Of a stretch of 64,000 nt of DNA, positions 33,140-52,385 are shown in pieces (the stretch's first letter is position 1; the number at the start of each line of letters is the position of its first letter). The notes beneath the pieces are model-generated. The model saw nothing but the letters and a program-made list of their open reading frames with translations. It made no database searches and was not told the origin of the DNA. The position numbers and the translations under genes are program-made. The stretch lies in the NCBI GenBank assembly GCA_022794255.1, contig JAAWEL010000024.1, forward strand, positions 62,001 through 126,000, written 5' to 3'. Origin of the DNA: Lachnospiraceae bacterium. GTDB taxonomy: Bacteria; Bacillota; Clostridia; Lachnospirales; Lachnospiraceae.

Positions 33140-35347
33140 TTACCAGTTAATGTCCGGCATTGTCTCACCTGCCGGGGGCGCAGTCTCCGGCGGCGCTGTT
33201 TGAGGCGGAGCGGTCGCCGGAGGCGCAGTCTCTGGGGGTGCGGTGGTCGCCGGGGGCGCCGTAGGCTCTGGCGGCGGGGCAGCGGTTGTGGGGGGCGCGG
33301 TCTCCTTTGCCTTCGACTGGGTCTGTGCGGCTGGCTGAGTCTGTCTGGCTGCCTTTGTCTGCTTGGCCGGATCCTTTCCTTTACTGATCACCAGATTTAC
33401 CGAGTCACCCTTTTTAACCTCTGCATCCTGGGCTACACTCTGGGAAATCACCTTTCCATTTGGTACGGAATCACTGTAATCTTCTGTGACTTTTCCCACC
33501 TTCAGTCCAAGACTCTCAATCTCTCCTCTTGCTTCCTCCAGGGACATCAGCTGAACGTTTTTCATGTAAATCTTTTCTGCACCGGCACTGATCCGGACCG
33601 TGACATAAGAGCCCTTATTCGCCTTTTCTCCTGCCTTTGGCGTATGTCCCAAAATCGTTCCCTTTGGCTCATCGCTGGCTTCCTCGATCCAGTTGACCAA
33701 AAAGCCCGCTTCCTCAAGAACCCTTCCTGCTTCCTCACGCTCCATTCCATCCAGCTTGGGAACCTCAATCTGAACCGATTCATCCTCCAGCTGATTCTCC
33801 TCATTTACGCAGATCGTAAGGACGATTTCTTTATCTAAAACCACATTGTCTCCCTGCTCCTCGCTGATTTTCAAAACAGAGTTGTAAACCCCTTCCTCCT
33901 GGCTTTCCTCCAGTCGGATATTGGTAAAACCAGCTTCCTCAAGAATCTTTTCTGCCTCCTCCTTCTGAAGGCCCTTGACCGAGGGGATTACTCCCTTTTC
34001 CTCCCCTTTACTGATCAGCACTACCAGGGTGGTGTCCTTTTCCACCAAAGTGTTTTCTTTTATTTCCTGATACGATATCCGGTTCGCTGGAATTTCCTTG
34101 GAATACACCATCTTATCCCTGGACATTCCCAGCGTCTGACTGGCTAAAAGAGTCTCCGCCTCATCTGCATCCTGGTTGACCACATTGGGAACCCTTGTCA
34201 TGTTTTCCTCCACATGCATATCATCCGATCCCAAATGAAACTGAATTATCCCGGTAATCATCAGTCCGGCCACCACGGCCACTGCGGCCACAATGATTCC
34301 GGCCAACGCCAGAAACCACCGGGGAACTGCCCCCACATCCCTCTTATCCTTAGTGACAGAACGCTCTTTTACCTCTGCAGCCAGAAGCTCTTTGGAAAAT
34401 TCCTCCATAGTCTGAGTCCGGTCCTGAATCTTTACATTCAAGGCATTCATCAGGGCGGTCTCCATGGGCTTTGAGAGCTTTATTCCCAATTTGGACGGCT
34501 TTTTCACCTCGTCTTTTACGCTCCGTTCCATGGCATCCTCCAAAGTGATGCCTGTCAGCATTTTATAAAGGGTGGCAGCAAGGGCGTAGACGTCCGTCCA
34601 GGTCCCCTGATCTCCCCTGCTCCGGTACTGCTCTTCTGGGGCATAACCAGGCTTTATAATTACAGAAAGACTTTTGCTGTGCTTGGTCGTGGCATAGCGG
34701 GCCGCACCAAAATCCAAAAGCTTTACCTGCAGATTATCCGGTTCTTCCGGATTTAAAACATAAATGTTGTCCGGAGCAATATCCCTGTGGAGAATCCCGG
34801 TCTTATGTACTGCCTCCATGGCAGGCGTAATCTGGAGAATCACCTGTAATGCCTGATCCACTGACATCTTTCCATGCTCTGCCAGATACTCCTTCAGCGA
34901 CATTCCCTCCAAAAACTCCATCACAATGTAGGAGGTTCCATTGGCCTCAAAACAGTCGTAGATCTGAACAATGCCAGGCACAGACTCAAACTTTGCCAGC
35001 CGCTTTGCCTCGTCTAATGTCTTAATCAGCCCTTCCTTAAACTGCTCCTCTCTGTCGCCGGAATAGACCGTGACCTTCTGCTGCGTTGGCATCCGGGTGG
35101 CAAACTCACTGGGAAGGTATTCCTTTATAGCCACCTTTCGTTCCATCAGATAATCCCATCCCACATAGGTCACACCAAAGCCGCCGAAGCCCAGCACCTT
35201 TCCCACGATATACCGCTGTAAAAGCACCGAACCAGGCGGGATGTGATAGGATTGCTTTGCCGGTGTATCAAACGCATATCCGCAATGAGGACATATGTCG
35301 AACTTGTCGTCATACCTCTTCATGCATCCCATACATAATCTTTCCAT
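33140..35347 (-). CDS. Ser/Thr protein kinase with N-terminal zinc ribbon and PASTA repeats
   Basis: This is a 735-residue Hanks-type membrane kinase. A zinc ribbon uses C5/C8 and C19/C22. The kinase domain (about 45-325) is intact: G-loop GFGGFG, K75 in VAIKEY, HRDIAPDN with D189, DFG at 212 and GYAPEEQY. A single membrane helix (343-370) leads to four extracellular PASTA-like repeats (about 385-660), then a Pro/Thr-rich tail. PASTA domains bind muropeptides or lipid II in related PrkC/PknB kinases. It is the last gene of the kinase/FHA block and a close paralogue of the gene at 36181-38802. Confidence 0.93.
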   Translation of the reverse strand: MERLCMGCMKRYDDKFDICPHCGYAFDTPAKQSYHIPPGSVLLQRYIVGKVLGFGGFGVTYVGWDYLMERKVAIKEYLPSEFATRMPTQQKVTVYSGDREEQFKEGLIKTLDEAKRLAKFESVPGIVQIYDCFEANGTSYIVMEFLEGMSLKEYLAEHGKMSVDQALQVILQITPAMEAVHKTGILHRDIAPDNIYVLNPEEPDNLQVKLLDFGAARYATTKHSKSLSVIIKPGYAPEEQYRSRGDQGTWTDVYALAATLYKMLTGITLEDAMERSVKDEVKKPSKLGIKLSKPMETALMNALNVKIQDRTQTMEEFSKELLAAEVKERSVTKDKRDVGAVPRWFLALAGIIVAAVAVVAGLMITGIIQFHLGSDDMHVEENMTRVPNVVNQDADEAETLLASQTLGMSRDKMVYSKEIPANRISYQEIKENTLVEKDTTLVVLISKGEEKGVIPSVKGLQKEEAEKILEEAGFTNIRLEESQEEGVYNSVLKISEEQGDNVVLDKEIVLTICVNEENQLEDESVQIEVPKLDGMEREEAGRVLEEAGFLVNWIEEASDEPKGTILGHTPKAGEKANKGSYVTVRISAGAEKIYMKNVQLMSLEEARGEIESLGLKVGKVTEDYSDSVPNGKVISQSVAQDAEVKKGDSVNLVISKGKDPAKQTKAARQTQPAAQTQSKAKETAPPTTAAPPPEPTAPPATTAPPETAPPATAPPQTAPPETAPPAGETMPDINW

Positions 35348-35359
35348 TTTGCCCCTCTG

Positions 35360-36124
35360 CTACTTTTCTTCTGATTTCGTATTCTCTTTCTCTGCCTCTT
35401 CCAGATCCTCCCAGGCAAACTGTTCGTTGCAGCATGGTATGATCATCAAGTTGACCTTTCCTAAGGAGATTACATCATTCGGCTTTAAAACAAGATTGTC
35501 TAAAACCACATTGTCATTTACGTAAAACAGTTCTCTGGAATCCCCTGGCTGGGCGATAAAAACCCGGCCCCTGGGTTCATAGATAATGACTGCATGGCGC
35601 TCCCTGGACACGGACTTTTCCCCTTCCAGGCACACATCCATCTGGGAGCTGCGTCCGATAAAATTCCTTCCGCTTTTCAGGCAAAAGCTCTGTCCAAAAT
35701 ATTCTCCCGCCGTGCAGACCAGCCATCCCACCACCGGTTCTATTTTGATCTTTTGGCTGATTTTCTGGCTGTAATAGCTGACCGTCATGTTGTTGTCATC
35801 CTCTGCCAGGCCGGCCCCCTCCAAATCTTCAAACCCCTCCATCATTCCCTGAATACCGGCAGAAGCCCCAAGATTCAGTTCCGGCGGCGCCTGGTGAACG
35901 CTTTTTTGTGTAACCGGCTCATGGTCCGTGGAATACTGAGCAATCGTCACCGACTCCTCCATCCCGCTTCCGGCGCCAAGGGCAACGGTTTTTTCCTCCG
36001 AACCGCCGACAGGCAGGGAGATTGTGACGGAATCCGTAGATGGCGCCTGGGAACCGCAATGGGGACAGGATGCATATTTATCCCCATCATAAAAGTGTCC
36101 GTTGCTGCATTTCATTAAATTCAT
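35360..36124 (-). CDS. FHA-domain protein with N-terminal zinc ribbon
   Basis: This 254-residue protein is probably cytosolic. The N-terminus (KCSNGHFYD...CPHCG) is a zinc ribbon. A flexible Ser/Thr/acidic segment (about 28-125) contains several threonines followed by hydrophobics that could be kinase targets. The FHA domain (about 140-240) shows GRNFIGRSSQMDVCL, SRERHAVI and FYVNDNVVLDN, the pThr-binding loops. It ends with CCNEQF. It is a paralogue of the protein at 49661-50272, lies between two PASTA kinases and is likely their substrate or adaptor. Confidence 0.9.
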   Translation of the reverse strand: MNLMKCSNGHFYDGDKYASCPHCGSQAPSTDSVTISLPVGGSEEKTVALGAGSGMEESVTIAQYSTDHEPVTQKSVHQAPPELNLGASAGIQGMMEGFEDLEGAGLAEDDNNMTVSYYSQKISQKIKIEPVVGWLVCTAGEYFGQSFCLKSGRNFIGRSSQMDVCLEGEKSVSRERHAVIIYEPRGRVFIAQPGDSRELFYVNDNVVLDNLVLKPNDVISLGKVNLMIIPCCNEQFAWEDLEEAEKENTKSEEK

Positions 36125-36180
36125 ACCAAATCCCTCCTATTATTAAACACTTCCTAACTCATAACCAGACAAATACCAGA

Positions 36181-38802
36181 TCAAAAACCAGCGCCCTTGC
36201 TGACAGTCAGATTAACACTGCTTCCTCTTTTTACTTCTTTTCTTGGGGCAATGCTTTGAGAAATCACACATCCTTCCTCCACGGTGTCGCTGTATACATA
36301 ACTTACCGAACCCAGCTTCAATTCGTTTCTCTCCAGAGAACCGATTGCATCCTCCAAAGTCATTCCAGCCAAATTTTTCATTTTCACATTCTGGGACACG
36401 GTTCTCTTTCCCGAGGCGCTCACCACATTGGAGCTGTTTGAATCCTCCGGCTGGGCGTCTGGGTTTGTCTGAGCTGCTTGTGTCTGGGCTGCTGTTTCTG
36501 CCTGAACCACTGCGGCAGTCTGAGGAACTGCCTCCGACTGCATGGCCGCCTGGGCAGATGCCTCGGCTTGCCTTCTGGCTTCCTCTGCCGCAGCTGCCTC
36601 TGCCTGCCTTCTGGCCTCCTCTGCCGCAGCTGCCTCCGACTGCCTTCTGGCCTCCTCTGCCGCAGCTGCCTCCGACTGCCTTCTGGCCTCCTCTGCTGCA
36701 GCTGCCTCTGCCTGCCTTCTGGCCTCCTCTGCCTCTGCTGCAAACGCCTCCGACTGCCCCTTTTCCGATCCTGCCTTAGCTTCCTCCGATTCCCTCCTGG
36801 CTTTTTCCTGCGCTTCCTTTTCCGGGTCCTTCCCTTTGCTGACCATCAAAGCTATAGCGGTTCCCTTCGGCACCTCCCGATTGGCTTCTATGGACTGAGA
36901 AATCACCTTTCCTGCAGGTATGGTGTCATGGTACTTCCTGCTGATATTTCCCATTATAAGCCCCTGGCCTTCGATTGTCCTTGTTGCCTCTGCCTCTGTC
37001 ATAAGAGAGACATTTTCCACATAAACCTTTTCTGGTCCTCTGCTGATGTATAAAGTAACATAAATTCCTTTATTGCAGGTTTCTCCCTGCCCCGGATTCT
37101 GTCGAATCACAATCCCTTCCGGCCGTTCGCTAAATTCCTCCACCACATTGATCAAAAAATCCTTTTCTTCCAGAAGAAGTCTGGCCTCCTCTTTTGTCTT
37201 TCCCACCAGGTATGGCACCTGGATACTCTGAGAGCTGTTCCCCTCCCGGTTTTCCTCATTGATACAGACCGTAAGGACAATCTTCTTACTTAAGGACACC
37301 TGGGCCCCCTGTTCCTCACTGATATCCAAAACAGAATCATAGGCTCCCTGTTCCTGGCTTTCCTCTATCTGGACATTGAAAAATCCCATTTTCTCTAAAA
37401 GCTTTTGTGCTTCTTCTCTGGAAAGCCCTTTCACAAAGGGAAGGACTGCCATCTCCTCTCCCTTGCTGATCCAGACTACCAGAGAAGAATATTTTTCCAC
37501 CGGCGTGTTCTCCTTGATCTCCTGATAGCACACCATGTTCTCCGGAATTTCACTGGAATAGACCGCCTTGTCCCGAACCATCTCAATTCCCTGTCTGCGC
37601 AGAACCATCTCCGCCTGCTCCACCTCTTTGTTGATCACATTGGGAACCCGAACCATGTTCCGGTCCAGATGGCTCTCCCCCGAATCCATCCGGAAATGAA
37701 TCACTCCGGTTATCATAAGGAGAATGGTGGCCAGGGCAATTGCCACTCCTGTCCCCCCTAAGACAAAAAGCCACTTGGGAAGCTTTATCGGATCTCCTGG
37801 GGTCTTTGTCACCGTCCGCTCCTCCACCTCCCCCTCTGTCAGCTCCTCCATAAATTCCCTCATAGACTGAGTACGGTCCTGGGCCTTTACGTTCATGGCG
37901 TTCATCAAAGCCGTCTCCGTTGCCTTTGGTATATCAACCTTTAGCTTTGAAGGCCTTTTCACCTTGTCCTCAGATCCCCGCTCCATGGCATCCTCTGGTG
38001 TGATCCCTGTAAGCATTTTATAGAAAGTGGCTGCCAGGGCATACACATCAGACCAGGGGCCCTGTTCCCCATGGCTGCTGTACTGCTCCTCGGGAGCATA
38101 ACCCTGCTTGATAATTACTGACAAGCTTTTGCTGTGCTTGGTCGTGGCATAGCGGGCCGCACCAAAATCCAAAAGCTTTACCTGAAGCCGGCTTGGTTCA
38201 TCAGGATTGAGCACATAAACATTGTCTGGTGCAATGTCCCGGTGGAGAATTCCCAGACGATGCACCGCCTCCATGGCTGAGGCAATCTGCAAAACCACTG
38301 GCATTGCATATTCCAGAGGCATCTCTCCGTGCTGGTCCAGATATTGTTTTAAAGTCATCCCCTCCAAATACTCCATCACAAGGTAGGAGGTTCCGTTGGC
38401 CTCAAAGCAATCATAGATCTGGACAATGCCGGGAACCGAATCGAACCGGGCCAGACGCTTGGCCTCATTCATCATCTTTTCCATTCCCTCCCGAAAGCCC
38501 TTCTCCCGGTCTCCTGAGTAGACTGTAACCTTCTCCTGCATTGGCATCCGGGTGGCAAACTCGCTGGGAAGATACTCCTTGATGGCCACCTTCCGCGCCA
38601 TTATGTAATCCCAACCGATATAGGTAACTCCAAAGCCTCCAAACCCCAGCACTTTTCCCACAATATACCGGTTGTTCAGGATCGTGCCCGGTACGATATG
38701 AAAACCCTGCTCCGGTGGGGAGTTAAACACATACCCACAATGAGGGCATAAATCAAACTGGTCATCATATTCCCTCATACATCCCATACATAGTCTTTTC
38801 AT
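36181..38802 (-). CDS. Ser/Thr kinase with zinc ribbon, PASTA repeats and Ala/Glu/Arg tandem repeat
   Basis: This 873-residue membrane kinase starts at the ATG at 38802; a GTG one codon earlier is possible, with AGGAG close by. Order: zinc ribbon (CMGC...CPHC), active kinase domain with GFGGFG, VAIKEY, HRDIAPDN, DFG and GYAPEEQY, a membrane helix near 350-375, and four PASTA-like repeats. Then comes an extracellular charged helix made of five AEEARRQ-type units, and a fifth PASTA at the C-terminus (KMKNLAGMTLEDAIGSLE). The DNA of the charged region is a 36-bp tandem repeat at 36569-36748. It belongs to the same paralogue group as its neighbours at 33140 and 38843. Confidence 0.93.
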   Translation of the reverse strand: MKRLCMGCMREYDDQFDLCPHCGYVFNSPPEQGFHIVPGTILNNRYIVGKVLGFGGFGVTYIGWDYIMARKVAIKEYLPSEFATRMPMQEKVTVYSGDREKGFREGMEKMMNEAKRLARFDSVPGIVQIYDCFEANGTSYLVMEYLEGMTLKQYLDQHGEMPLEYAMPVVLQIASAMEAVHRLGILHRDIAPDNVYVLNPDEPSRLQVKLLDFGAARYATTKHSKSLSVIIKQGYAPEEQYSSHGEQGPWSDVYALAATFYKMLTGITPEDAMERGSEDKVKRPSKLKVDIPKATETALMNAMNVKAQDRTQSMREFMEELTEGEVEERTVTKTPGDPIKLPKWLFVLGGTGVAIALATILLMITGVIHFRMDSGESHLDRNMVRVPNVINKEVEQAEMVLRRQGIEMVRDKAVYSSEIPENMVCYQEIKENTPVEKYSSLVVWISKGEEMAVLPFVKGLSREEAQKLLEKMGFFNVQIEESQEQGAYDSVLDISEEQGAQVSLSKKIVLTVCINEENREGNSSQSIQVPYLVGKTKEEARLLLEEKDFLINVVEEFSERPEGIVIRQNPGQGETCNKGIYVTLYISRGPEKVYVENVSLMTEAEATRTIEGQGLIMGNISRKYHDTIPAGKVISQSIEANREVPKGTAIALMVSKGKDPEKEAQEKARRESEEAKAGSEKGQSEAFAAEAEEARRQAEAAAAEEARRQSEAAAAEEARRQSEAAAAEEARRQAEAAAAEEARRQAEASAQAAMQSEAVPQTAAVVQAETAAQTQAAQTNPDAQPEDSNSSNVVSASGKRTVSQNVKMKNLAGMTLEDAIGSLERNELKLGSVSYVYSDTVEEGCVISQSIAPRKEVKRGSSVNLTVSKGAGF
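36569..36748. repeat. Tandem repeat of five 36-bp units inside a kinase gene
   Basis: Copies begin at 36569, 36605, 36641, 36677 and 36713, each starting TGCCTTCTGGC. They encode 12-residue EAAAAEEARRQ-type units in the extracellular part of the kinase. Copy number may vary between strains. Confidence 0.85.
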
Positions 38803-38842
38803 CACACGCTCCTTTTGGTCCTTCTGCCATCGGTCCCTGCCG

Positions 38843-41167
38843 TTACGGCTGGGAAGGCGGCGTGTTTATCTGCGCATCGTTATTTTCCAAATTGGGATTG
38901 GCAGAATCAATCGGTATGAAAGTAGTTTCCTCCGCTGGCGGCGTCTCTGATGGCCCTTGTGTCTGGGCAGGCACTGTCTCTGCCCCTGCCTTTCCCGGAT
39001 TCTTTTCCCCGGAAGGACCAGATGTTTCCCCGGTTCCCCCTCCGATTTCGATAACAGTTGTTTTATCCCCGTCCGAAGCCCGACTTGACTCTTCATTCCT
39101 GGTTTCCTTCACAGTCTCCGCCTCTGTTTCCGTCTGGCTTATCTCCTCTTTCGTCTCTGGCGGTGCGGTAGGAGTTGGCGGCGTTTTTATTGCTGGTTGT
39201 GTAGCTGCTGGCTGTGTTGTTTTCTTTGGCTTGTCCTTCTTCTCTGCCTGCTGCTGTGTTGCCGGATTTTTCCCCTTGCTGACTGCCAGATCAATGGAAT
39301 CACCCTTTTTAAGCTCCGCATCCTGTTTGATACTCTGGGAAATCACCTTTCCAGGAGCAATGGAATCGCTGTATTCCTCCGTCACCCTGCCGATCTGACC
39401 GCCTAACCCTTCAATCTCCCTGCGGGCCTCCTCAAAACTCATCAGCTGTACATTTTTCATGTAAATTTTTGCCGGACCTGTACACACATAGATGGTGATG
39501 TATTCGCCTTTGCCTAACTTCTCCCCTGCTGCCGGCTCCTGCTTAAGGATAGTCCCTCTTGGCTTATCGCTGGCTTCTTCTGCCCAATTGGCCAGAAATC
39601 CTGCACTCTCAAGGGCTTTTTGTGCATCAGCCCTTTCCATCCCCGTCAGATCCGGTACATCCTGCTGATCTGGTTTATCCTCTGTCTGTTCTTTTTGATT
39701 CACACAGACTGTAAGGACGATTTCCTTGTTCAGTGCAACATTTTCTCCCTGTTTTTCACTAATCCCCTGGACAGAATTATAGACACCTTCCTCTTTGCTT
39801 TCTGCCACCCGGATGCTATTAAATCCGGCTTCTTTTAAAAGCTTCTCTGCCTCTTCCCTTTGAAGTCCCTCTACGGAGGGAATCACCCCCTTTTCCTCCC
39901 CCTTGCTGATCCAGACAACAATCTCTGTCCCTCGCTCTACCATAGTATTTTCTTTGATTTCCTGATAGGAAATGATATCTGGATCAACGTCTTTGGAATA
40001 TACCATCTGATCTCTGGACATTTCCAGACCAGAGTTTTTTAAAAGTGCCTCTCCCTCGTTGGCCTCTCTGCCAACCACATTGGGAACCCGAACCATATTT
40101 TTCTCCACCTGATTGCTGTCCGAGCCGATATGAGGCCGGATAACGCCGGTAAACAAAAGGAGAGCCGCCACGGCAACCCCGGCAAGACCGATCCCGGCCA
40201 TTAGATACAGCCACTGGGGCACGGAAAGAGAATCCTTCGCATCCCTTCTCTTGGAGCGGTTTTGATGAAAATTGTCCACAGCCCGCTCATCTAACCGCCC
40301 TCCCAGCTCATCCCGAAACCGGTAAAGACTTTTGGTCTCATGAGACAAGGCATGCTTTAAAGCGGTTACAGTCTCCTTATCCAGAGACACCTTTTCCCGA
40401 AGCAGATCCATCTCCAGATTATCCCCGTCTTCAATCCCCTTCCCCGTCACCATCTGGCAGAAAAGCCTGGCAAGGCCATAGACATCCGTCTCTGGCCCGG
40501 CCTTTCCATAATTGACCACTCCCGGTTCCCCGCTGATATAACGCCAGGCCCCGAAATCCTTGAGTATCAGACTCCCGTCCCTGGCTACCCAGAAAGTATC
40601 AAGGTCAATCATCCCGTGGCAAACCCCGATCCGGTGTACCTTATCCATTGCCTGGACTGCCATCCTTAAAAGGGCAAGGGCCTGCTCCTCCTCCAGCTTT
40701 TCCTGTTCAATCAGATCTCGTAAGGTCCGCTCCTCCCGGTAATCCATTACCCCATAGGCAGTCTGATTTTCCCCAAAGCAGCTGTGATACGTAATAATGT
40801 CTCTCTCTTTATACAGCCGGATCAGCTCCCGGCTCTGGATGTTAAACAGCTCTAATCCCTTAAGGAAGATATCCTTTTTTGAATCGTAGATGCTTAAATC
40901 AGGCTTTGCCGAGCGGGTAGCACAATATCGGGGAAAATATTCCTGAATCAGCACTCTCCGGTCAAACAAAGCATCCCATCCGATATAGAGGATATCATTG
41001 TCCCGGGTCTTTTTTACAGTCCCTACAATATACCTTCCCTGAAGGATTGTGCCTGGCCGCAGGCACATCTCCCCATTCATGGTTACTCCTTCTGCATATC
41101 CACAGCAGGGACAGGTATCTCCAAACTTCTCCTGGTATTCACTCATGCAATTCAGACAACGCCTCAT
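38843..41167 (-). CDS. PASTA-repeat pseudokinase with zinc ribbon
   Basis: This 774-residue membrane protein is homologous to the flanking PASTA kinases but appears catalytically dead. The N-terminal ribbon is CLNC...CPCCG. In the kinase-like domain the glycine loop is replaced by KKTRDND, the VAIK lysine by Gln (Q75, VLIQEYF), the catalytic HRD by HGM (184-186) and the following Asn by Thr (191); only DFG (204-206) remains. The membrane helix (LYLMAGIGLAGVAVAALLLF) and four PASTA-like repeats are well kept, and a Thr/Pro/Glu-rich tail follows. It overlaps the upstream kinase by four bases (ATGA). A regulatory or scaffold role is likely. Confidence 0.9.
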   Translation of the reverse strand: MRRCLNCMSEYQEKFGDTCPCCGYAEGVTMNGEMCLRPGTILQGRYIVGTVKKTRDNDILYIGWDALFDRRVLIQEYFPRYCATRSAKPDLSIYDSKKDIFLKGLELFNIQSRELIRLYKERDIITYHSCFGENQTAYGVMDYREERTLRDLIEQEKLEEEQALALLRMAVQAMDKVHRIGVCHGMIDLDTFWVARDGSLILKDFGAWRYISGEPGVVNYGKAGPETDVYGLARLFCQMVTGKGIEDGDNLEMDLLREKVSLDKETVTALKHALSHETKSLYRFRDELGGRLDERAVDNFHQNRSKRRDAKDSLSVPQWLYLMAGIGLAGVAVAALLLFTGVIRPHIGSDSNQVEKNMVRVPNVVGREANEGEALLKNSGLEMSRDQMVYSKDVDPDIISYQEIKENTMVERGTEIVVWISKGEEKGVIPSVEGLQREEAEKLLKEAGFNSIRVAESKEEGVYNSVQGISEKQGENVALNKEIVLTVCVNQKEQTEDKPDQQDVPDLTGMERADAQKALESAGFLANWAEEASDKPRGTILKQEPAAGEKLGKGEYITIYVCTGPAKIYMKNVQLMSFEEARREIEGLGGQIGRVTEEYSDSIAPGKVISQSIKQDAELKKGDSIDLAVSKGKNPATQQQAEKKDKPKKTTQPAATQPAIKTPPTPTAPPETKEEISQTETEAETVKETRNEESSRASDGDKTTVIEIGGGTGETSGPSGEKNPGKAGAETVPAQTQGPSETPPAEETTFIPIDSANPNLENNDAQINTPPSQP

Positions 41168-43311: not shown

Positions 43312-44120
43312 TTCCCGTCTCCTCCCTGACCTCCCAAATATTTCATCAGCACAACCGTTGTATTATCCTGGCCTCTGACCCCATAACGAAGGGCCATTGC
43401 CGTTGTCCGGTCAGCTGCAATGTACATGTCCAGATCATTGTCCCGTACCATAGCACAGATCTGACTCTCGTTTAAACTCTTATAAACCCCGTCACTGCAA
43501 AGCATGATAATATCCCCCGGCTGCAGAAGAATCGGCATGGGATTTCCGTCAATCAGAGTCAAGTTCTCAATCCCGATATAGCTGATCAGTGCTTCCGCCT
43601 GAGCCGTCTTTTCCTCCCTGTCGTAGACGGCCTGGGTAATTCTCCCGCTTTCCAGCTGGTTTTTCAGCGTCAGCCGGTAATTGTGTTCCCGGTTGACCGA
43701 CTGAAGCTTATTTCCATGGATGATATAGATTTTACTGTCTCCCACAGAGACCCAGTACATCTGATTCTCCCGAAAGTAAGCAGCCACCAGCGTTGTTCCT
43801 GCCTTTAGCGGCTTTCCCTTTTTATCCTTTAAAGACAGCACCGTCTGATTCATCCGCCTTGCCTCTTCCCTCAGAAATTCAGGCACATTCTCAAGCCCTT
43901 TCCTTATGTGGAAATCCTGAATCATCCGCTGTACAGCCGCCTTGCTGGCTTTCTCACCGCCCTCTAAACCTCCCATCCCATCACACACAATGGACAAAAC
44001 CTCCTGGGCGCCCGTATAAAAATATGCAAAATCCTGCTGATAACTCCTGGTTCCTAATATACTGCTGGCCCCGATCTCATACCAGGGATTTTCCCTTACA
44101 CGTTCTTCAACGATATTCAT
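43299..44120 (-). CDS. PP2C-family Ser/Thr protein phosphatase
   Basis: This 273-residue metal-dependent phosphatase has SYQQDFAYF (first metal Asp), VCDGMGGLEGGEKAS, VSVGDSKIYII, MLCSDGVYKSL and GQDNTTVVLMK, so the two-metal centre is complete. There is no membrane segment. Its C-terminal segment GGQGGDGKCFA is encoded in the overlap with the kinase gene downstream, and its start overlaps the kinase-FHA gene by 14 bases. It probably reverses phosphorylation by the neighbouring kinases. Confidence 0.93.
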   Translation of the reverse strand: MNIVEERVRENPWYEIGASSILGTRSYQQDFAYFYTGAQEVLSIVCDGMGGLEGGEKASKAAVQRMIQDFHIRKGLENVPEFLREEARRMNQTVLSLKDKKGKPLKAGTTLVAAYFRENQMYWVSVGDSKIYIIHGNKLQSVNREHNYRLTLKNQLESGRITQAVYDREEKTAQAEALISYIGIENLTLIDGNPMPILLQPGDIIMLCSDGVYKSLNESQICAMVRDNDLDMYIAADRTTAMALRYGVRGQDNTTVVLMKYLGGQGGDGKCFA

Positions 44121-45558
44121 ACTTTACTCCTAACTCTATAATACAGGATGAGCCGGACAGGGAAAATTTTGCCGGAGGCTTTACCTGATAATCCACATCC
44201 CGCTGCAAACGCTTCCCTTTAAAGAAAACACCATTGACCGACAGATCCCGGATACTGAACTTTTTCAGATCTGCCAGATAGGTAATCTTACAATGTACCC
44301 GGCTTATATCCTCTGGATATTGCACTCTCAAATGAGCCTCTGTCATGGATCTTCCGAAGGTCATGGTCTGGTTGGGGGGAAGCACCCAGTTCTTTCCAGC
44401 CTCCACTCCGTTTAGCACCGCCACATAGGGAAACTCTGCCACCACCTTTTTCCGGTTTCCCACCAAAACCTTGGCAGGATTTTCTGGTTTACCTGCAACA
44501 GGCTTTGGTACTGGTCTTGGAACAGGCTTTGGTACCGGCTTTGGAACAGGCTTTGGTGCTGGTTGGGATACCAATGACTTTGCAGACGCAATCTCCCCGA
44601 TAAAGACCTGCATGGACGGCGTGCGCTGACGCACATTCAAAACAAGTGCATGATCCACCGCATCAGAAATTTTCTCCGGCACTCCTAAGTTCATCTGTTT
44701 TAAGGGCACATAGTCTTTTCCGGCCAGCCGATCCGGCGCCGGAGGAACATGGATTCCGGTCAATGCATAATAATAGGTGCTTGCCAGAGAATACACATCC
44801 GTAAAGCTTCCCTGAACCATCTCGGATGAAAATTGCTCCGGAGGGGCAAATTTCGGCTTTAAAACCACAGACAGGCCCTTTTTCATCCCTGTCTCTGTCC
44901 TTTTGGCACTTCCAAAATCAATCAGCTTTACTTTTCCATCCCTGGTGATGTAGATATTTTCAGGACTGATATCGCGATGGATAATCTTTGTCTTTGTGTG
45001 AATCACATCCATGGACACAGCCACCTGAAGAATCACATCCGTGATCTGGTTTACGGGAATCCGTTGTTTTGACGCCTTCACAATCTGACGCAAATCTGCC
45101 CCGTTTAAATATTCCATCACAAAATAGGCCGTATTATTTTCCTGGAAGGTATCGGTTATGTCCACAACGGATGGAATCTGCTCTAATCGGCTTAAGATCT
45201 GAGACTCCTCCAAAAAACGGGCAAGCCCGGCCATGTAAGGGCCATCACTTTCCTGTGAGGTCAGCTCTAACCGGCAACTATCCGGCTCTCGTATACAAAG
45301 GCCATTGGGGGCATATTCTTTAACCGCACAGGTTATGTTTTTTTTCGTATCAAAAACCTTATAGGTAATGCCAAATCCGCCTTCTCCCAAAACTCTGCCT
45401 ATATAGTACCTCTGTTTAAGCATGGTTCCAGCTGCTAAGCTTCTCTTGCCATATTTTTCACCGTAGGCAGATTTATAGCCGCAACGGGAACAGCTCCCGT
45501 TCTGATACCCTGATTCAAAGCAATTCGGACAAAGCTCCAGCTTCACTTTTTTCACCAC
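44107..45558 (-). CDS. Cytosolic Ser/Thr kinase with zinc ribbon and C-terminal FHA domain
   Basis: This 483-residue protein has a zinc ribbon C10/C13 and C23/C26. The kinase domain (about 52-325) has GEGGFG, K80, HRDISPEN with D196, DFG at 215 and FAPPEQF. A Pro/Lys/Val linker of repeated PKPV units (333-356) leads to the FHA domain (about 378-480, with FGRSMTEAH, SRVHCKI and VNGVFF). There is no membrane helix, so it is probably the cytosolic member of the kinase set. The start is GTG at 45558, with a weak ribosome site but a seven-base overlap with the vWA-FHA gene, implying coupled translation. Confidence 0.92.
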   Translation of the reverse strand: MVKKVKLELCPNCFESGYQNGSCSRCGYKSAYGEKYGKRSLAAGTMLKQRYYIGRVLGEGGFGITYKVFDTKKNITCAVKEYAPNGLCIREPDSCRLELTSQESDGPYMAGLARFLEESQILSRLEQIPSVVDITDTFQENNTAYFVMEYLNGADLRQIVKASKQRIPVNQITDVILQVAVSMDVIHTKTKIIHRDISPENIYITRDGKVKLIDFGSAKRTETGMKKGLSVVLKPKFAPPEQFSSEMVQGSFTDVYSLASTYYYALTGIHVPPAPDRLAGKDYVPLKQMNLGVPEKISDAVDHALVLNVRQRTPSMQVFIGEIASAKSLVSQPAPKPVPKPVPKPVPRPVPKPVAGKPENPAKVLVGNRKKVVAEFPYVAVLNGVEAGKNWVLPPNQTMTFGRSMTEAHLRVQYPEDISRVHCKITYLADLKKFSIRDLSVNGVFFKGKRLQRDVDYQVKPPAKFSLSGSSCIIELGVKYEYR

Positions 45559-47300
45559 CTGATTGTTATTTTCATCGATCCGGCCTCAATCACAGAGCCC
45601 GGCTCCAGTCTCCTCTTTTCATGTACCCGTATTCCATTTACAGAAGTCCCATTGGTGGAATTTAGATCCGAAATATAGACAATCCCATCCTTTTGCTCCA
45701 GGCAGAAATGCTGCCGGGACAGCTCCAAATCCTCCACCTGCACATCGCATATGGAGCTGCGGCCCACAATCAGGCTGCTCCCCAACTCCCAGGCCGTTTT
45801 CTGCACCTTCATGCCACTTTTTGACAGCCATACCTCCAGCCGTTTTTTTGCAGTAAATGGCACGGTTATATGCTGTTGGAATCCCCCTTCTTCCTTCATG
45901 GAAATGCCCGTGCCTGATGCCTCCGGTGAGGGGCTCTCCCCTCCATCCGGACTGGTTTTCCTGCTTTTGACAACCAGAAAAACAATCAGTCCCACCACGG
46001 CTGCAAATATCAGAAAAAGTACCCCCGTATAGTCCTCCTGCCTGTCCACAGGCTCCGGCTTTTCTGGATCTGGCTCCTCTACAATGTCAGTAACCGTAAG
46101 TCGGATAGGATTGGCCAAAGGGTTCTTTTCCATAGAATAATCCACAATATTTGTGGTATGAAGCTCATAAGTCCCGTTCTTTATCGTCTCTGCCAAGGAA
46201 AGAGTGACAGACATTTTCTCTTTTCCCTCGCAGGAAATCCCTGTCACTGCCACTGGATGTCCATCAAGAGTCAACTGATAGTTTGCCCCTGTCTCCGCGC
46301 CCTGTAAGGGCTCATCAAACAGTAAAAGGAGCTGCTGCTTTCCAGAAACTTGAATGTTCAAAAGCCGGGGCGGTTTTTCATCCGGAATCCAATGATTATT
46401 CATCACTGGCCTGGAAAGGACTGTTCCGTCCTCCAATTTTAAACTGAACACATCCTCCTGGTTGGAGACCACATTGGAATCCGCATAAAACTCCATCCAC
46501 AGATCCTCTGCCAGGCTGCCTGCCAAATCACTTAAAATCCTGCTGCCCTCCTCCGGGCCAAAGGTCCGAATCTGGCCACCGGAGGTTCTGGCAAACTCTC
46601 CAAAATTATTGATATTTTCTGTTGCTGTGTTTTTTATGCAGAATGCATAGACCGGAATGCCTTTCTCTCTCAGGGTATTCTGAGCCTCCTGAGCCATCTT
46701 CTTTCCAATAGAAATATCCTTTCCATCAGAGATCACTACCACCACCCTTCTTCTTAAGCTCTCCCGGGACTGCTCCGCCAGGGCTGCCACCTGATCAATT
46801 CCCTCAAAAAGAAGCGTTTTCTGATCCTTGTTTCGGATCCCTTCCAAAGCAGCTTTTATGTCCTCTGTGGTCTGGCTCCCATCTGCCGCCAGTATCACCT
46901 CTTCCCCAAAGGTACACAAGACCAACCTGTCCTTTTCCCCTAATTCCTCCTGCAGCTTCAAAATCCCCTCTTTGATGGTCTTAAAATAAGAATTGGGGAT
47001 GGACCCGGATATGTCTAACAAAACATAATAACCGATCCCCTCTCCGCTCTCACCAAAAGATCCTGTATGTTTAAGCTCAAGCTTTTCCTGGGAAAGGTAA
47101 GCTTCCCGGATACTCTCCTCCGAAATACCGCTTCCACAGACAAATATCTCCGGCATATTGGCATATACCTGTTCCAGCCTCTTCTCCTGCCCGTCCAGCA
47201 CAAAAGCCGGCTTTTCCTCTGCTCCCTGCACTGGCATGGCCCCGATACAGAAAGCAGCAAGCAAAGCAGCAAACCTTAAACATCTTCCTCTCTTTCCCAT
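45552..47300 (-). CDS. Transmembrane vWA-FHA protein
   Basis: This 582-residue protein starts at the ATG at 47300 behind GGAGG (the frame is open to 47318). A signal peptide (FAALLAAFCIGAMPVQGA) leads to an extracellular vWA domain with an intact MIDAS motif, LLDISGSI, and later VVVISDGKDIS. An Ig-like/CARDB-like region follows, then a membrane helix (VLFLIFAAVVGLIVFLVV). A cytosolic FHA domain at the C-terminus has LIVGRSSICDVQV, SRQHFCLEQ and DLNSTNGTSVNG. It thus joins an outside metal-dependent adhesion domain to an inside pThr reader. It overlaps the neighbouring FHA gene by 25 bases. Confidence 0.92.
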   Translation of the reverse strand: MGKRGRCLRFAALLAAFCIGAMPVQGAEEKPAFVLDGQEKRLEQVYANMPEIFVCGSGISEESIREAYLSQEKLELKHTGSFGESGEGIGYYVLLDISGSIPNSYFKTIKEGILKLQEELGEKDRLVLCTFGEEVILAADGSQTTEDIKAALEGIRNKDQKTLLFEGIDQVAALAEQSRESLRRRVVVVISDGKDISIGKKMAQEAQNTLREKGIPVYAFCIKNTATENINNFGEFARTSGGQIRTFGPEEGSRILSDLAGSLAEDLWMEFYADSNVVSNQEDVFSLKLEDGTVLSRPVMNNHWIPDEKPPRLLNIQVSGKQQLLLLFDEPLQGAETGANYQLTLDGHPVAVTGISCEGKEKMSVTLSLAETIKNGTYELHTTNIVDYSMEKNPLANPIRLTVTDIVEEPDPEKPEPVDRQEDYTGVLFLIFAAVVGLIVFLVVKSRKTSPDGGESPSPEASGTGISMKEEGGFQQHITVPFTAKKRLEVWLSKSGMKVQKTAWELGSSLIVGRSSICDVQVEDLELSRQHFCLEQKDGIVYISDLNSTNGTSVNGIRVHEKRRLEPGSVIEAGSMKITIRW

Positions 47301-47923
47301 ACTCTGTCCTCCCCACAAAATGGGATGAACACAAAGGCGCTCTCCCCCATTTTGATCTCATCTCCTGCATTCAGAATCTCACTTTTTGTCAAAAGCTTGT
47401 TATTATAATAGGTCAGGGCATTGGAGGAAGGAACTACCGAAAAACAACGTCCTCTCTCATCATATACCACTGAACAATGATTTTTCCTGGTTATTGACAA
47501 ATCATCCATTACCTGAACATCCATCCCGGCATCTCTCCCGATCCGGTTGAATCCATGATGGAGTCTGTAATCTCTTCCCTTTTCCGTGCCGCTGATACAA
47601 ACCAGCCAGCCTGTCACATAGTCATTTCCCTTTGCCCCGGAGTAATATCCAACGGTTTTCTGATCCTCCTCCCCATCGATTGGAAGCTTGGCTTCAAGGG
47701 CAATGGTCCTGTCCTCCTCAAGCTCTGGTATGGGCTTCTTATCCCGGGAAAGGGCCACGGTCTTATCCCGGTCCATCCATCCAAAAAATCCTTTTTGTTT
47801 TTTTCCTTCCCCGTCTTTTGCCGGGGCATCCTTTAAGACCCCAACCGAAATCCCGCAATGGGGACAGGAAGAAAATCTCTGATTGTCATAGTAATGTCCC
47901 TGGGGGCACCGAACCACCGGCAT
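47276..47923 (-). CDS. FHA-domain protein with zinc ribbon
   Basis: This 215-residue cytosolic protein begins RCPQGHYYD...SCPHCG, a zinc ribbon. The middle contains three DRTIAL/DKTVAL-type threonine motifs (near residues 53, 71 and 88), which look like phosphorylation sites. The FHA domain (about 103-200) has FNRIGRDAGMDVQV and ITRKNHCSVV, with Thr in place of the usual conserved Ser before the Arg, and a final FIPFCGED. GGAGGAG precedes the start. It lies between a PP2C gene and the vWA-FHA gene and is probably a kinase substrate or adaptor. Confidence 0.9.
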   Translation of the reverse strand: MPVVRCPQGHYYDNQRFSSCPHCGISVGVLKDAPAKDGEGKKQKGFFGWMDRDKTVALSRDKKPIPELEEDRTIALEAKLPIDGEEDQKTVGYYSGAKGNDYVTGWLVCISGTEKGRDYRLHHGFNRIGRDAGMDVQVMDDLSITRKNHCSVVYDERGRCFSVVPSSNALTYYNNKLLTKSEILNAGDEIKMGESAFVFIPFCGEDRVWEREEDV

Positions 47924-47935
47924 ATTTTACTCCTC

Positions 47936-48661
47936 CTAATCCAGCCAGACCGCAATGGCAGAATAGTTGTCCATATTTTTACCCCGCCCGTTCTTCCGGA
48001 CGATTTCTTCCATTTTTTCCAACCAGTCTCTTGGTGTTTTCGCCCGCTTAAGGCAATGTATCATCTTTTTTTCATCAATCAGCTCCCAAAATCCATCAGA
48101 GCAAAGCAAAAACTCCTGTTTTCCCTGCCTGGACTCTGCCTCTTCTACCTGATATCTGGGGCTGTCCCAGTCCACCCCCAGAACCCGAAGAAGGCGGTTT
48201 CTGTCCGGATGGTTCCGAATCTGGGATTCCTTCAGCTGCCTTGCAGCCACTAAAAGCTGGGGAACGCTGTGATCCAAGGTCCTCCATGCCAGCTTGCCGT
48301 TTTGAAAATAATAGAGGCGGCTGTCACCAATATAACCCCACTGAATCTGTTTTTCCCCCACATGAAGAACCACCAATGTGGTTTTCATATCCTGTGCCTG
48401 AAAATCTGCTTTCTGATTTTCCAGTATTCTTCTCTGCGCTTCCTGAAAAGAAGCCTCCAACACCTGATTGCCGGCTCCCTCTACGGCAAATATCTCAACC
48501 GTTGCTTCCACAGCCAGCCGGGAAGCCTCCTCTCCCTTTCCATGACCTCCCAGACCATCTGCCAGTACAAAGCAATAGTCCTGGTCCTTTTGGTACATAC
48601 CAATATTGTCCTCATTATTGTCTCTGTCACCTACATTGCTGAGCAAGTGATACGAAATCAT
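47936..48661 (-). CDS. PP2C-family Ser/Thr phosphatase, second copy
   Basis: This 241-residue phosphatase is of the PrpC/Stp type: SNVGDRDNNEDNIGMY, LADGLGGHGKGEEAS, WGYIGDSRLYYF, LLCSDGFWELI and MDNYSAIAVW. All metal-ligand Asp residues are present. It is only distantly similar to the PP2C at 43299-44120, so it is not a recent duplicate. A 12-bp inverted repeat lies just upstream of its ribosome site. Confidence 0.93.
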   Translation of the reverse strand: MISYHLLSNVGDRDNNEDNIGMYQKDQDYCFVLADGLGGHGKGEEASRLAVEATVEIFAVEGAGNQVLEASFQEAQRRILENQKADFQAQDMKTTLVVLHVGEKQIQWGYIGDSRLYYFQNGKLAWRTLDHSVPQLLVAARQLKESQIRNHPDRNRLLRVLGVDWDSPRYQVEEAESRQGKQEFLLCSDGFWELIDEKKMIHCLKRAKTPRDWLEKMEEIVRKNGRGKNMDNYSAIAVWLD

Positions 48662-48679
48662 AAAAGAAGCCTCCCTTCA

Positions 48680-48711
48680 ACTGCCAGAAAGCTTCCTCCC
48701 TTTCTGGCAGT
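48680..48711. repeat. Intercistronic inverted repeat before the second PP2C gene
   Basis: ACTGCCAGAAAG (48680-48691) and CTTTCTGGCAGT (48700-48711) form a perfect 12-bp stem with an 8-base loop. On the minus strand no T run follows; the ribosome site AAGGGAGG begins a few bases later. It could stabilise the mRNA end, be an RNase site, or cause partial termination. Confidence 0.6.
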
Positions 48712-48732
48712 CTAATGCCTGTTTTTGTCTCT

Positions 48733-49617
48733 TTAATTCAACCGAAAACCATTTTTCCTGCTGCTTCCCAGATAAATCACTGTACCCCGGGCCAGCTGCT
48801 TGGGCTGCCCGCTTTCTAAACGGGTTCCATTTTCCAGATAAGTCCCATTGCTGGAATAATCTGTCACCACATACTGATTGGCTCTCCCGTCAAAACGCAC
48901 GGAGCAATGCTTCCGGCTCACATCGGTTGCCAGCTGATCAAATACAATATTGGCATCCTGAGGAGAACGTCCGAATACCAGCTCTGAACCATCCGTTAAG
49001 TCAAAACTTGCATCTGCATAGGTACCCACAATTCCCACGATTACCCCTGAGTTGGTGGGCATTCCCTTCTTGCCGTCAGGGCTGCTCGAAGCTGTCTCCA
49101 CATATTTTCCATAGCGGACAGAATTGGAAAATGCAATCAGCATGGCAAAAGTCAGAGAAACCAGGCCAAAGGTGGGGATAATATTTAACCATGCAGTATT
49201 GGGATTGAACCCAAACGCCTCATAAAACTTTTGGTAATATAAAAAGGTAAACACCATATTGGCGATAATATAAATACAGACAAGTACAGAAACAATCGCC
49301 ATTTTGCCAGTCAGCTTATAAAGCAAGAAGGAGACAAGTCCCACGGTTCCCACGGTGATTGTGCTGGTTCCGAAAAAGAATACATACCACCAGGGACATT
49401 TTGCAATCTTCATCTGATAAAGCTGACGTCCAATGGGAATAAACGGCATAAAATCACTGTTTAGTTTTGCCTTCCGGCCTGTACACATCAGCGCATAGCC
49501 ATGGACAAAGTAGGGAACCACCAAAAACAGAAGGCTTAAGAGAAAGAACAAAATACTCATACTCTGTATCGCCCTTGCAAAATCCTCTAACATACTCTCA
49601 TATCCAAAATAATCCAT
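48733..49617 (-). CDS. Polytopic membrane protein with C-terminal FHA domain
   Basis: This 294-residue protein has four to five membrane helices in its first 165 residues (MSILFFLLSLLFLVVPYFV, TVGLVSFLLYKLTG, VLVCIYIIANMVFTFLYY, LVSLTFAMLIAFSN). A motif around DFMPFIPIGRQLYQMKIAK resembles DUF5684-type membrane proteins. The cytosolic FHA domain (about 195-294) has ELVFGRSPQDANIVF, SRKHCSVRF and DYSSNGTYLENG. It may anchor phosphorylated partners at the membrane. It is the second gene of the block. Confidence 0.88.
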   Translation of the reverse strand: MDYFGYESMLEDFARAIQSMSILFFLLSLLFLVVPYFVHGYALMCTGRKAKLNSDFMPFIPIGRQLYQMKIAKCPWWYVFFFGTSTITVGTVGLVSFLLYKLTGKMAIVSVLVCIYIIANMVFTFLYYQKFYEAFGFNPNTAWLNIIPTFGLVSLTFAMLIAFSNSVRYGKYVETASSSPDGKKGMPTNSGVIVGIVGTYADASFDLTDGSELVFGRSPQDANIVFDQLATDVSRKHCSVRFDGRANQYVVTDYSSNGTYLENGTRLESGQPKQLARGTVIYLGSSRKNGFRLN

Positions 49618-49660
49618 CAGTTACTCTCCTTTGTTTATTCTATTTTTTCTTTTTTGTGTT

Positions 49661-50272
49661 TCATGCCTCAGATGCCCACTGGAAATGATCATCGCAGCAG
49701 GGAACCAGCATCAGCTGTACATCGCCGATCTGTAATATGTCATTCTTTTTCAGCTCTACAGAAGAAAGCACCACATTTCCATTGACATAAAACAATTCCC
49801 TGGATTCTCCCGGCTGTGCAATAAAAATATTCTTTCGCGGTTCGTGAATAATCGTTGCATGGCGGTCGCGGGACACAGTTGCTTCCCCTGAAAGGCAAAC
49901 ATCCATGTTGACTCCCCTTCCGATAAAGTTCCTCCCGCTCTTCAAGCGAAAATCCTGTCCATAGAATTTGCCCTTGATACATACCAGCCATCCTACAATC
50001 GGGGACATTTGTGGTGTCTCCATTTTTCCGCTCTGGTAAATGCTAATGGTTTTTGAGTCATCCATGTCCAGATCGCCAATACCGTCCTCATTGGCGCCGG
50101 CTGATACATAACTTTCCAGGTCAATTGTCGCAGCAATATTACTGCTTGGGCTGACACCAGCACTGTCAAATGCAATTGTGCTGTTTTCATCCATACCGCC
50201 ACTGCAATGAGGGCAGGAGCCATATGTATCGCTGTCATAAAAATGCCCGTTGCTACATTTTGTCAGATTCAT
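49661..50272 (-). CDS. FHA-domain protein with zinc ribbon, first gene of the kinase/FHA block
   Basis: This 203-residue cytosolic protein starts at the ATG at 50272, eight bases after GGAG; the frame is open to 50338 without a ribosome site. The zinc ribbon is KCSNGHFYD...SCPHC. An acidic linker with threonines follows (NSTIAFD, DDSKTISIYQ), then an FHA domain with GRNFIGRGVNMDVCL, SRDRHATII and FYVNGNVVLS, ending CCDDHFQW. It is closely related to the protein at 35360-36124, at the other end of the block. Confidence 0.9.
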   Translation of the reverse strand: MNLTKCSNGHFYDSDTYGSCPHCSGGMDENSTIAFDSAGVSPSSNIAATIDLESYVSAGANEDGIGDLDMDDSKTISIYQSGKMETPQMSPIVGWLVCIKGKFYGQDFRLKSGRNFIGRGVNMDVCLSGEATVSRDRHATIIHEPRKNIFIAQPGESRELFYVNGNVVLSSVELKKNDILQIGDVQLMLVPCCDDHFQWASEA

Positions 50273-50374
50273 ACTCATCTCTCCTTTTTGTATTCCGCCT
50301 TGCTGCCAGGTCACTACCTGTTGTCTGTTAATCGGCAAACCAGTAATCTGTAACTCAGTAAGAACGTTGGAAAT

Positions 50375-50383
50375 ATTATAGCA
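50375..50383 (-). promoter_or_regulatory. Extended -10 promoter of the kinase/FHA block
   Basis: On the minus strand, TGCTATAAT (TATAAT at 50375-50380 with the TGn extension) lies about 100 bases before the first gene of the block. No good -35 is seen, which is usual for extended -10 promoters. It could drive a transcript of up to 17 kb. Confidence 0.6.
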
Positions 50384-51295: not shown

Positions 51296-51324
51296 ATTAT
51301 ATCCAAATATATGACATGTGTCAA
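51296..51324 (-). promoter_or_regulatory. Full-consensus sigma-A promoter of the response regulator
   Basis: On the minus strand, TTGACA (51319-51324) is 17 bases from TATAAT (51296-51301), a perfect match to consensus. The -35 lies over the stop codon of the preceding secreted protein gene. Two direct copies of CCGGCTC (51268-51274 and 51284-51290) are in the early leader. Confidence 0.85.
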
Positions 51325-52298: not shown

Positions 52299-52333
52299 TG
52301 CTTTCTCTCCCTCTCCTGCCATTTTATATTTGC

Positions 52334-52362
52334 AAAAAAGAGAGGAGAACCCCTCTCTTTTT
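52334..52362 (-). terminator. Terminator of the RNase P RNA gene
   Basis: AAAAAGAGAGG pairs with CCTCTCTTTTT around a 6-base loop, followed on the minus strand by TTTTTTGC, about 25 bases after the end of the RNase P RNA. Confidence 0.85.
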
Positions 52363-52385
52363 AAGAACATTACGTTTTATAAAAT

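Follow-up and report, generated by a model that had tools for sequence, protein, structure and literature searches.

A conserved cluster of kinase, phosphatase and FHA genes in Lachnospiraceae as a candidate envelope-sensing threonine-phosphorylation module, with type VII secretion nearby in relatives

Introduction

Among the type VII secretion systems (T7SSs) described as T7SSc to T7SSj, several come with kinases, PPM phosphatases and FHA proteins (Garrett et al. 2024, PMC11217815). In that paper, parts of T7SSc, T7SSe and T7SSj (TscD/E/F and TseD/F/J) comprise a membrane kinase, a PPM phosphatase and an FHA protein, joined in T7SSc by a vWA protein with a predicted cytoplasmic location, all encoded with an EssC-type ATPase, and regulation by phosphorylation is raised as a possibility. 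Here, we describe a comparable combination in a window of 64,000 nt (the whole stretch of DNA analyzed) from a Lachnospiraceae bacterium (assembly GCA_022794255.1, contig JAAWEL010000024.1, positions 62,001-126,000), in which a minus-strand block at window positions 33140-50272 holds 12 tightly spaced genes for four kinases with intact motifs, one pseudokinase, two phosphatases of the PP2C type and, apart from these, five FHA proteins, as read from open reading frames, Pfam domains and translations. We favor the view, on balance probable, that these genes belong to one operon for threonine phosphorylation in response to the state of the envelope. T7SS would be one client of this module, which in the window's incomplete genome, where no T7SS was detected, would be free-standing.

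The likeness to T7SSe and T7SSj is one of gene type, in that kinase, PPM and FHA genes stand together in their accessory sets and in the window. In contrast to the T7SS sets, the window has five proteins with a kinase fold and six with an FHA domain, sensors of the PASTA and solute-binding-protein types and a pseudokinase, and neither EssC nor WXG100 proteins were detected in its genome; its vWA protein, v, has a transmembrane (TM) segment and an FHA domain, whereas PMC11217815 describes TscE as cytoplasmic. The PknB-MviN-FhaA system of Mycobacterium likewise combines a PASTA kinase, a membrane pseudokinase and an FHA protein, but the pseudokinase of the window, k3, has no MurJ/MviN part and carries PASTA repeats of its own, and all genes of the set lie in one operon. 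OdhI and GarA of Actinomycetota are nearest in the PDB to the FHA domains of f1, f2 and f4 and share with them a conserved Thr before the FHA; unlike OdhI and GarA, the three have a zinc-ribbon N terminus, another Thr motif and altered NGT residues, and they belong to a signaling operon rather than to control of the tricarboxylic acid cycle. PrpC-PrkC (Stk1/Stp1) also pairs a PASTA kinase with a PP2C phosphatase, and both loci match model NF033483, but k1 and k2 of the window score 313 and 356 bits, below the Stk1 cut-off of 450, and the true prpC-prkC locus lies on another contig. The threonine phosphorylation pathway of type VI secretion systems (T6SSs), PpkA-PppA-Fha, is a functional analogue, whose kinase, PP2C and FHA proteins gate secretion (in part after the discussion of PMC11217815). 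No T6SS parts were found among the genes scanned, and we claim no homology beyond the kinase, PP2C and FHA folds.

The TerY-P triad consists of vWA, PP2C and kinase, and the same three fold types are adjacent in the window. An earlier note on this DNA, made from the sequence alone, had offered TerY-P for comparison; the match is poor, and membership was rejected because the vWA of v lies outside the membrane and is fused to TM-FHA. In the open-licence literature, which most subscription journals fall outside, we found no published account of the 13-gene unit delimited below, of a conserved PASTA pseudokinase or of a zinc-ribbon OdhI-like family.

Results

The 12 genes are separated by gaps of only -43 to +71 bases and are therefore probably co-transcribed. 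In the 3.4-Mb assembly, which is 87% complete, the block accounts for six of the seven FHA matches, five of the seven kinase matches (pseudokinase included) and two of the three PP2C matches, so that the clustering is far from chance. The two kinases elsewhere are PrkC and a 491-residue kinase on contig C24. The housekeeping prpC-prkC locus, on contig C11, has the order rlmN-prpC-prkC-rsgA-rpe (557 and 278 bits), and the island is thus distinct from it, as the earlier note had proposed. The single FHA protein outside the block, a DUF6382-FHA protein on contig C80 (L003:1474-2751), has the domain plan of TseJ/TsfJ of T7SSe/f, though a T7SS was not detected in this genome.

Upstream to downstream on the minus strand (domains by Pfam, TM calls by hydropathy), the block opens with f4 (49661-50272), a zinc-ribbon FHA protein whose start, aligned with relatives, falls at 50272 in preference to 50338, to which the open frame runs, or 50383; 50272 is the more likely start. 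It is followed by f3 (48733-49617), a polytopic membrane protein with several hydrophobic segments and a C-terminal canonical FHA domain (2.2e-14), by the PP2C phosphatase p2 (47936-48661; PP2C_2, 1.1e-17) and by f2 (47276-47923), a zinc-ribbon FHA protein with three copies of a Thr motif described below. The v protein (45552-47318) has an N-terminal hydrophobic segment at residues 12-31 that we read as a signal peptide, an extracellular vWA domain (1.6e-15), a TM segment at residues 428-455 and a cytosolic canonical FHA domain (6.8e-17), and k5 (44107-45558) is a cytosolic zinc-ribbon kinase (1.5e-34) with a C-terminal FHA domain (7e-10) and no TM segment by hydropathy. A second PP2C phosphatase, p1 (43299-44120; PP2C_2, 3.2e-14), precedes k4 (41164-43311), a zinc-ribbon kinase (3.7e-35) with a TM segment and an extracellular domain of predicted solute-binding-protein fold at residues ~363-715, and k3 (38843-41167), a PASTA pseudokinase with a TM segment (weak Pkinase match, 4.3e-9; PASTA, 3.9e-45). 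Then come k2 (36181-38805), a paralogue of k1 with zinc-ribbon, kinase, TM and five PASTA repeats by Pfam; f1 (35360-36124), an OdhI/GarA-like zinc-ribbon FHA protein (2.4e-8) with a conserved linker Thr in the alignment and GarA as its best PDB match by profile and fold; and k1 (33140-35347), with a zinc-ribbon, a Ser/Thr kinase domain (PF00069, 5.9e-33) with intact catalytic motifs, a TM segment, four PASTA repeats (6.4e-46) and a Pro/Thr-rich tail. The count of 12 adjacent same-strand genes with one pseudokinase, two PP2C phosphatases, three zinc-ribbon FHA proteins, one polytopic FHA protein and one TM vWA-FHA protein given in the earlier note agrees with these frames and domains.

A thirteenth gene was overlooked in that note. 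The minus-strand gene cb2 (32124-33056), which encodes a choline-binding-repeat protein (Choline_bind_3, 6.6e-15), starts 84 bases past k1 and lies downstream of k1 in 11 of the 16 islands of the panel introduced below (window included; some contigs end earlier). The two longest-stemmed terminator-like hairpins of the 19.4 kb scanned, both on the minus strand and followed by a T-run, lie after cb2 (32042-32010, 13 pairs), where the hairpin may close the unit, and between f4 and the upstream LytTR gene (50461-50437, 11 pairs). The scan counts consensus matches, of which there were 28 against 19.5 in shuffles, so that only position and stem length favor these two. Given the flanking hairpins, the 84-base spacing and the recurrence of cb2 after k1, the unit probably runs from f4 to cb2 and comprises 13 genes, with cb2 as the last.

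The order of these genes is conserved. When contigs were searched with aligned f1/f4 relatives, 135 stretches were confirmed, and the best 80 of them were annotated; v alone as query returned no matches in this search, whereas the zinc-ribbon FHA alignment succeeded. A panel of 16 islands (window included) was then picked for the k4-k3 core, stretches beyond the 80 among them, with contigs that occurred twice counted once; the looser FHA/PP2C/kinase clusters within those 80 were not taken into it, nor were most of the 20 loci read in the family. Nine islands are from the window's genus (the window, G434, G430, G427, G426, G436, G438, G440 and G432), and the other seven are from G111 and G361 of the same family, Candidatus (Ca.) Caccovicinus, Ca. 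Cottocaccamicrobium, Ca. Lachnoclostridium, Enterocloster and a Lacrimispora metagenome-assembled genome (MAG). The order f4-f3-p2-f2-v-k5-p1-k4-k3-(k2)-f1-k1-cb2 recurs, complete or in part, in the 15 islands other than the window. Besides k4 and k3, present throughout by choice, k5 and p1 occur in all 16 islands, v in 15, p2 in 14, f3, f1 and k1 in 13 each, f2 in 12 and f4 and cb2 in 11 each, where misses include contig ends; the sole island without v sits on a contig that begins inside k5. No gene-order inversion was seen in nine of the 16, and those in the other seven trace to a further k1-like gene ahead of f1, an f3-like gene that is additional or has moved, a k5 that is split, or a kinase upstream that is unrelated. 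G434 and G430 also have a second k1-like gene, and the paralogy of k1 and k2 is apparent from the k1 of G111, which shares 71% identity with the window's k1 and 61% with its k2.

At E 1e-20, v matches were found in 15 of the 24 genomes of the genus: nine with the island, two (G425 and G428) with another form of the cluster and four with v alone. In the wider family, where looser clusters are common, 57 of 397 genomes were positive, and seven of the 20 loci read, which were the best matches, hold p2, f2, v, p1 and f1 together; one of the seven, G361, belongs to the panel. Scattering in relatives, which the earlier note had named as a refuting outcome, was thus not seen in most of them, although in four v and the remaining genes are on different contigs.

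The k3 pseudokinase is decayed in the same way across islands. Its glycine loop, VAIK lysine and HRD arginine are missing from every one of 13 distinct islands, and its HRD aspartate from 12, Enterocloster retaining it. In the same alignment, from which one unrelated Enterocloster kinase labeled k1 and one duplicate row were set aside, k1, k4 and k5 retain both the lysine and the aspartate in every complete sequence. We infer that the dead kinase is maintained by selection, and its retention at one place in the operon points to a scaffold role. PMC12599244 offers a precedent, in which the tail of the MviN pseudokinase domain is phosphorylated by PknB and then recruits FhaA. The VAIK lysine, HRD and DFG are present in the window's k1, k2, k4 and k5, which by these intact motifs would be active kinases.

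The outer domain of k4 gave a best profile match of 8.1e-7 to sugar-binding proteins. Its AlphaFold2 model (predicted local distance difference test, pLDDT, 88; predicted template-modeling score, pTM, 0.88) matched solute-binding proteins in Foldseek, the best being a dinucleotide-binding protein (4.4e-11) and the next maltodextrin-binding MalE1 (8.2e-11), with template-modeling scores of ~0.5-0.6. The domain is predicted to have a solute-binding-protein fold.

The zinc-ribbon FHA proteins share a candidate phosphorylation site. Their nearest solved structures are GarA and OdhI, both by profile (best E 2.8e-7) and by fold, the fold match having used the FHA part of a full-length f1 model (pLDDT 74) in which the linker is disordered. 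All 21 aligned members, from three paralogous groups, share an invariant Thr ahead of the FHA domain, in a linker that is otherwise poorly conserved. Of 73 proteins, 58 carry the motif [DE]x(0-2)[KRQNSH]T[VI] within the final 60 residues of the linker, against 3.6 expected from shuffled linkers; the set comprised proteins labeled f1, f2 or f4 with at least 35% identity and 150-400 residues, after exclusion of four of 77 without a recognizable ribbon or FHA start. The motif most often reads D-[DE]-x-[KR]-T-[VI]-[SG]-[IYF]-[YF], position by position, with the Thr at a median distance of 16 residues ahead of the FHA core. By analogy with OdhI and GarA, this Thr may be phosphorylated and bound by the FHA domain; in Bdellovibrio DgcB, a tail is bound in similar fashion, according to PMC6733907. 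The earlier note had noticed neither this motif nor the link with T7SS that follows.

EssC was found in eight of the 24 genus genomes, all eight of which have a v match, and in none of the nine genomes without one (Fisher p 0.009, kinship uncorrected). In G432, G436 and G438, the island, without f4, adjoins EssC, and v is 12.7-14.5 kb from it. In G422, G423, G437 and G439, v stands alone 0.6-1.0 kb from EssC, and p2-f2-p1-k4-k3-f-k1-cb2, with an extra small FHA gene and without v and k5, lies on another contig. In trees of v and of k4, these four split genomes form one clade inside a subclade of the T7SS-adjoining islands of the genus, nearest to G438 (v tree) or to the G438/G436/G440 group (k4 tree, 94/90 support). 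From this nesting we infer that one ancestral unit was split and that v remained with EssC. The last gene of the split islands was considered as the TM-FHA gene seen before EssC and rejected, as it encodes a zinc-ribbon FHA protein in the two read. In G440, separate contigs carry v and EssC, that of v being an 11.4-kb fragment. The island also adjoins a T7SS in an Enterocloster MAG, which belongs to the other subclade. Across the family, EssC was found in 22 of 200 genomes at E 1e-150; in 20 family EssC loci read, some of which end at a contig edge, three show a v-relative followed by PP2C, and some others have PP2C or kinase nearby. Because kinase, PPM, FHA and vWA genes in T7SS loci have been described in PMC11217815, the T7SS side of these findings belongs to a published theme.

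Among the 14 genomes with an island (window included), EssC matches at 1e-20 occur in seven and are convincing in five. Those of the window genome and G404 reach 30-32% over ~210-230 residues (32% over 208 in the window genome), and we read them as SpoIIIE-like. In the window genome, at its 87% completeness, EssC has no match at E<=1e-100 or 1e-150 and WXG100 (PF06013) has none.

Discussion

We favor an envelope-sensing threonine-phosphorylation module. The sequences show its anatomy, its synteny, the decay of the pseudokinase, the Thr motif, the predicted folds and the association with T7SS in relatives; the phosphorylation partners, the cues sensed and the client in the window's lineage are proposed from these. 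The outer domains (the PASTA repeats of k1 and k2 and the solute-binding-protein-type fold of k4) would sense wall fragments, sugars or contact, and the kinases would phosphorylate one another, the k3 tail and the conserved Thr before the FHA domain of f1, f2 and f4. These three proteins may then act as switches of the OdhI/GarA type, folding onto or recruiting a phosphothreonine (pThr) partner. The canonical FHA domains of v, f3 and k5 would dock on phosphorylated membrane partners, with k3 acting like the MviN pseudokinase domain, and p1 and p2 would reset the system. As its output, the module would set how a membrane machine is assembled: T7SS may be one client in near relatives, with v as the connecting subunit; elsewhere, the client may be an FHA-ABC exporter; and in the window's lineage, it is probably cell-wall or surface-protein homeostasis involving cb2. 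The sensors named in the earlier note, PASTA and solute-binding-like, are thus supported by domain matches and by profile, model and Foldseek, with the extracellular vWA to be added. Its four active kinases stand as far as motifs go, these being what the activity is read from. Its claim that all recognizable members write, erase or read pThr is doubtful for f1 and f4, which lack NGT. Its membrane-centered phosphorelay holds as one conserved signaling unit and fails as a phosphorelay in the His-Asp sense.

Several observations weigh against this module. The FHA residues Asn-Gly-Thr of GarA are replaced by Glu-Leu-Phe in f1 and f4, which keep GR and SR, leaving the full pThr-binding set (GR, SRxH, NGT) incomplete and making pThr binding by f1 and f4 doubtful. 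Fifteen of the 73 zinc-ribbon FHA linkers lack this form of the motif within their final 60 residues; N-M precedes the invariant Thr of the window's own f1, where the expression is not matched; and f1 of the split islands is short, with linker and Thr motif lost in the two read. The islands compared are homologues and not independent samples. A response regulator-LytTR gene lies upstream of seven of the 16 panel islands, the window's included, as a single gene of ~240-260 residues in relatives; in the window (minus strand, 50488-51224), its halves are in different frames, 50832-51224 and 50488-50799, through either decay or an assembly error. On the T7SS side, seven of the 15 v-bearing genus genomes have no EssC match, 15 of the 23 genomes with an island or looser cluster have no WXG100 match, and G111 carries its T7SS on a separate contig from its island, with a more distant v-relative of its own. 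T7SS is therefore not the sole output, and we rejected it as an obligatory partner on account of the 15 genomes without WXG100.

These same data bear on whether the island is primarily a T7SS control module, homologous to the kinase, PPM and FHA parts of T7SSc/e/j, the T7SS of the window having been lost or lying in the unassembled 13% of the genome. In seven of the eight EssC-bearing genus genomes, v is beside EssC or in an EssC-adjoining island, the eighth being G440, and to this may be added the Enterocloster island beside a T7SS and the published T7SS loci with kinase, PPM, FHA and vWA (PMC11217815). We nevertheless consider such a primary role rather unlikely, as the island is conserved in genomes with no WXG100 match (G398, G399, G400 and G402), convincing EssC is confined to a minority of island genomes and the window genome yielded neither protein. 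A cell-wall-homeostasis branch parallel to PrkC, with muropeptides sensed by the PASTA kinases and peptidoglycan synthesis under the control of the FHA proteins and the pseudokinase, as in PknB-MviN-FhaA, is possible but doubtful. The PASTA repeats of k1 to k3, the conserved pseudokinase and the choline-binding protein of the unit would all suit it, and the MviN/FhaA mechanism provides a precedent (PMC12599244); yet the genes scanned within and next to the island include no MurJ, FtsW, PBP or other wall enzyme, k3 has no MurJ domain fused to it, and k3 of some islands is just 298-367 residues, a length that by itself leaves little space for PASTA after the kinase fold.

An anti-phage defense cluster was considered because PD-T4-6 and MADS kinases are among the best PADLOC matches; the PADLOC and first NCBIfam scans covered ten of the 12 proteins, k3 and f4 lying outside. 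The PD-T4-6 and mad6 kinase models match k1, k2, k4 and k5, and PDC-M21C matches p1 and p2 (p2 at 5.5e-18), but for each kinase the matching models of this sort number more than 30, a breadth that Ser/Thr kinases in general would show, and v, f1, f2 and f3 have no PADLOC match; given the breadth of the kinase-model matches, we rejected this reading as very improbable. A chance pile-up of duplicated kinase genes without shared function could draw on the paralogy of k1 and k2 and is contradicted by synteny, the core and its order being conserved over 16 islands with overlapping genes, which leaves it a negligible probability.

Starting again from the envelope-sensing module, a bolder version, which we offer tentatively and would expect to need revision, is that the operon encodes a receptor complex wiring outside contact to a secretion or export machine via threonine phosphorylation. 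PASTA, solute-binding and vWA sensors would meet on the pseudokinase, zinc-ribbon OdhI-like switches would read its state, and v would be an exchangeable plug to T7SS, an FHA-ABC exporter or wall homeostasis. With candidate writers, erasers, readers, switches and a scaffold encoded together, the long-standing question of who talks to whom in bacterial threonine phosphorylation can be tested within a single operon. Genomes with v parted from the kinases and beside EssC also provide a direct handle on the regulation of T7SSs with phospho-parts, left as a possibility by Garrett et al. (PMC11217815).

Genes matching an FHA-ABC-2 membrane transporter occur in sister islands (L050, L070, L071, L073, L074, L075, L080, L087, L092 and others), between k4 and k3 in L070, L071, L073 and L080; the protein of L050, the one scanned, has two FHA domains. 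The transporter resembles Rv1747. An FHA-ABC exporter is absent from the seven FHA matches of the window genome. The genome of G438 has 20 kinase matches and a second, partial island (L250), whose p1, k4, k3 and k1 are 63, 65, 43 and 69% identical to those of the window. A smaller cluster, related but distinct, with FHA, mostly PP2C and one or two kinases, is found in Christensenella, Massiliimalia, Anaeromassilibacillus and other Clostridia (L112, L114, L115, L117, L118, L119, L120, L122, L124, L125, L129, L130 and L133), and zinc-ribbon FHA genes stand beside kinase or PP2C genes far outside Clostridia, in Methylovulum, Synergistales and Crenothrix (L098, L111 and L113). Upstream of the response regulator, window positions 51321-52370 encode a second protein with weak choline-binding repeats and a C-terminal part without an assigned domain.

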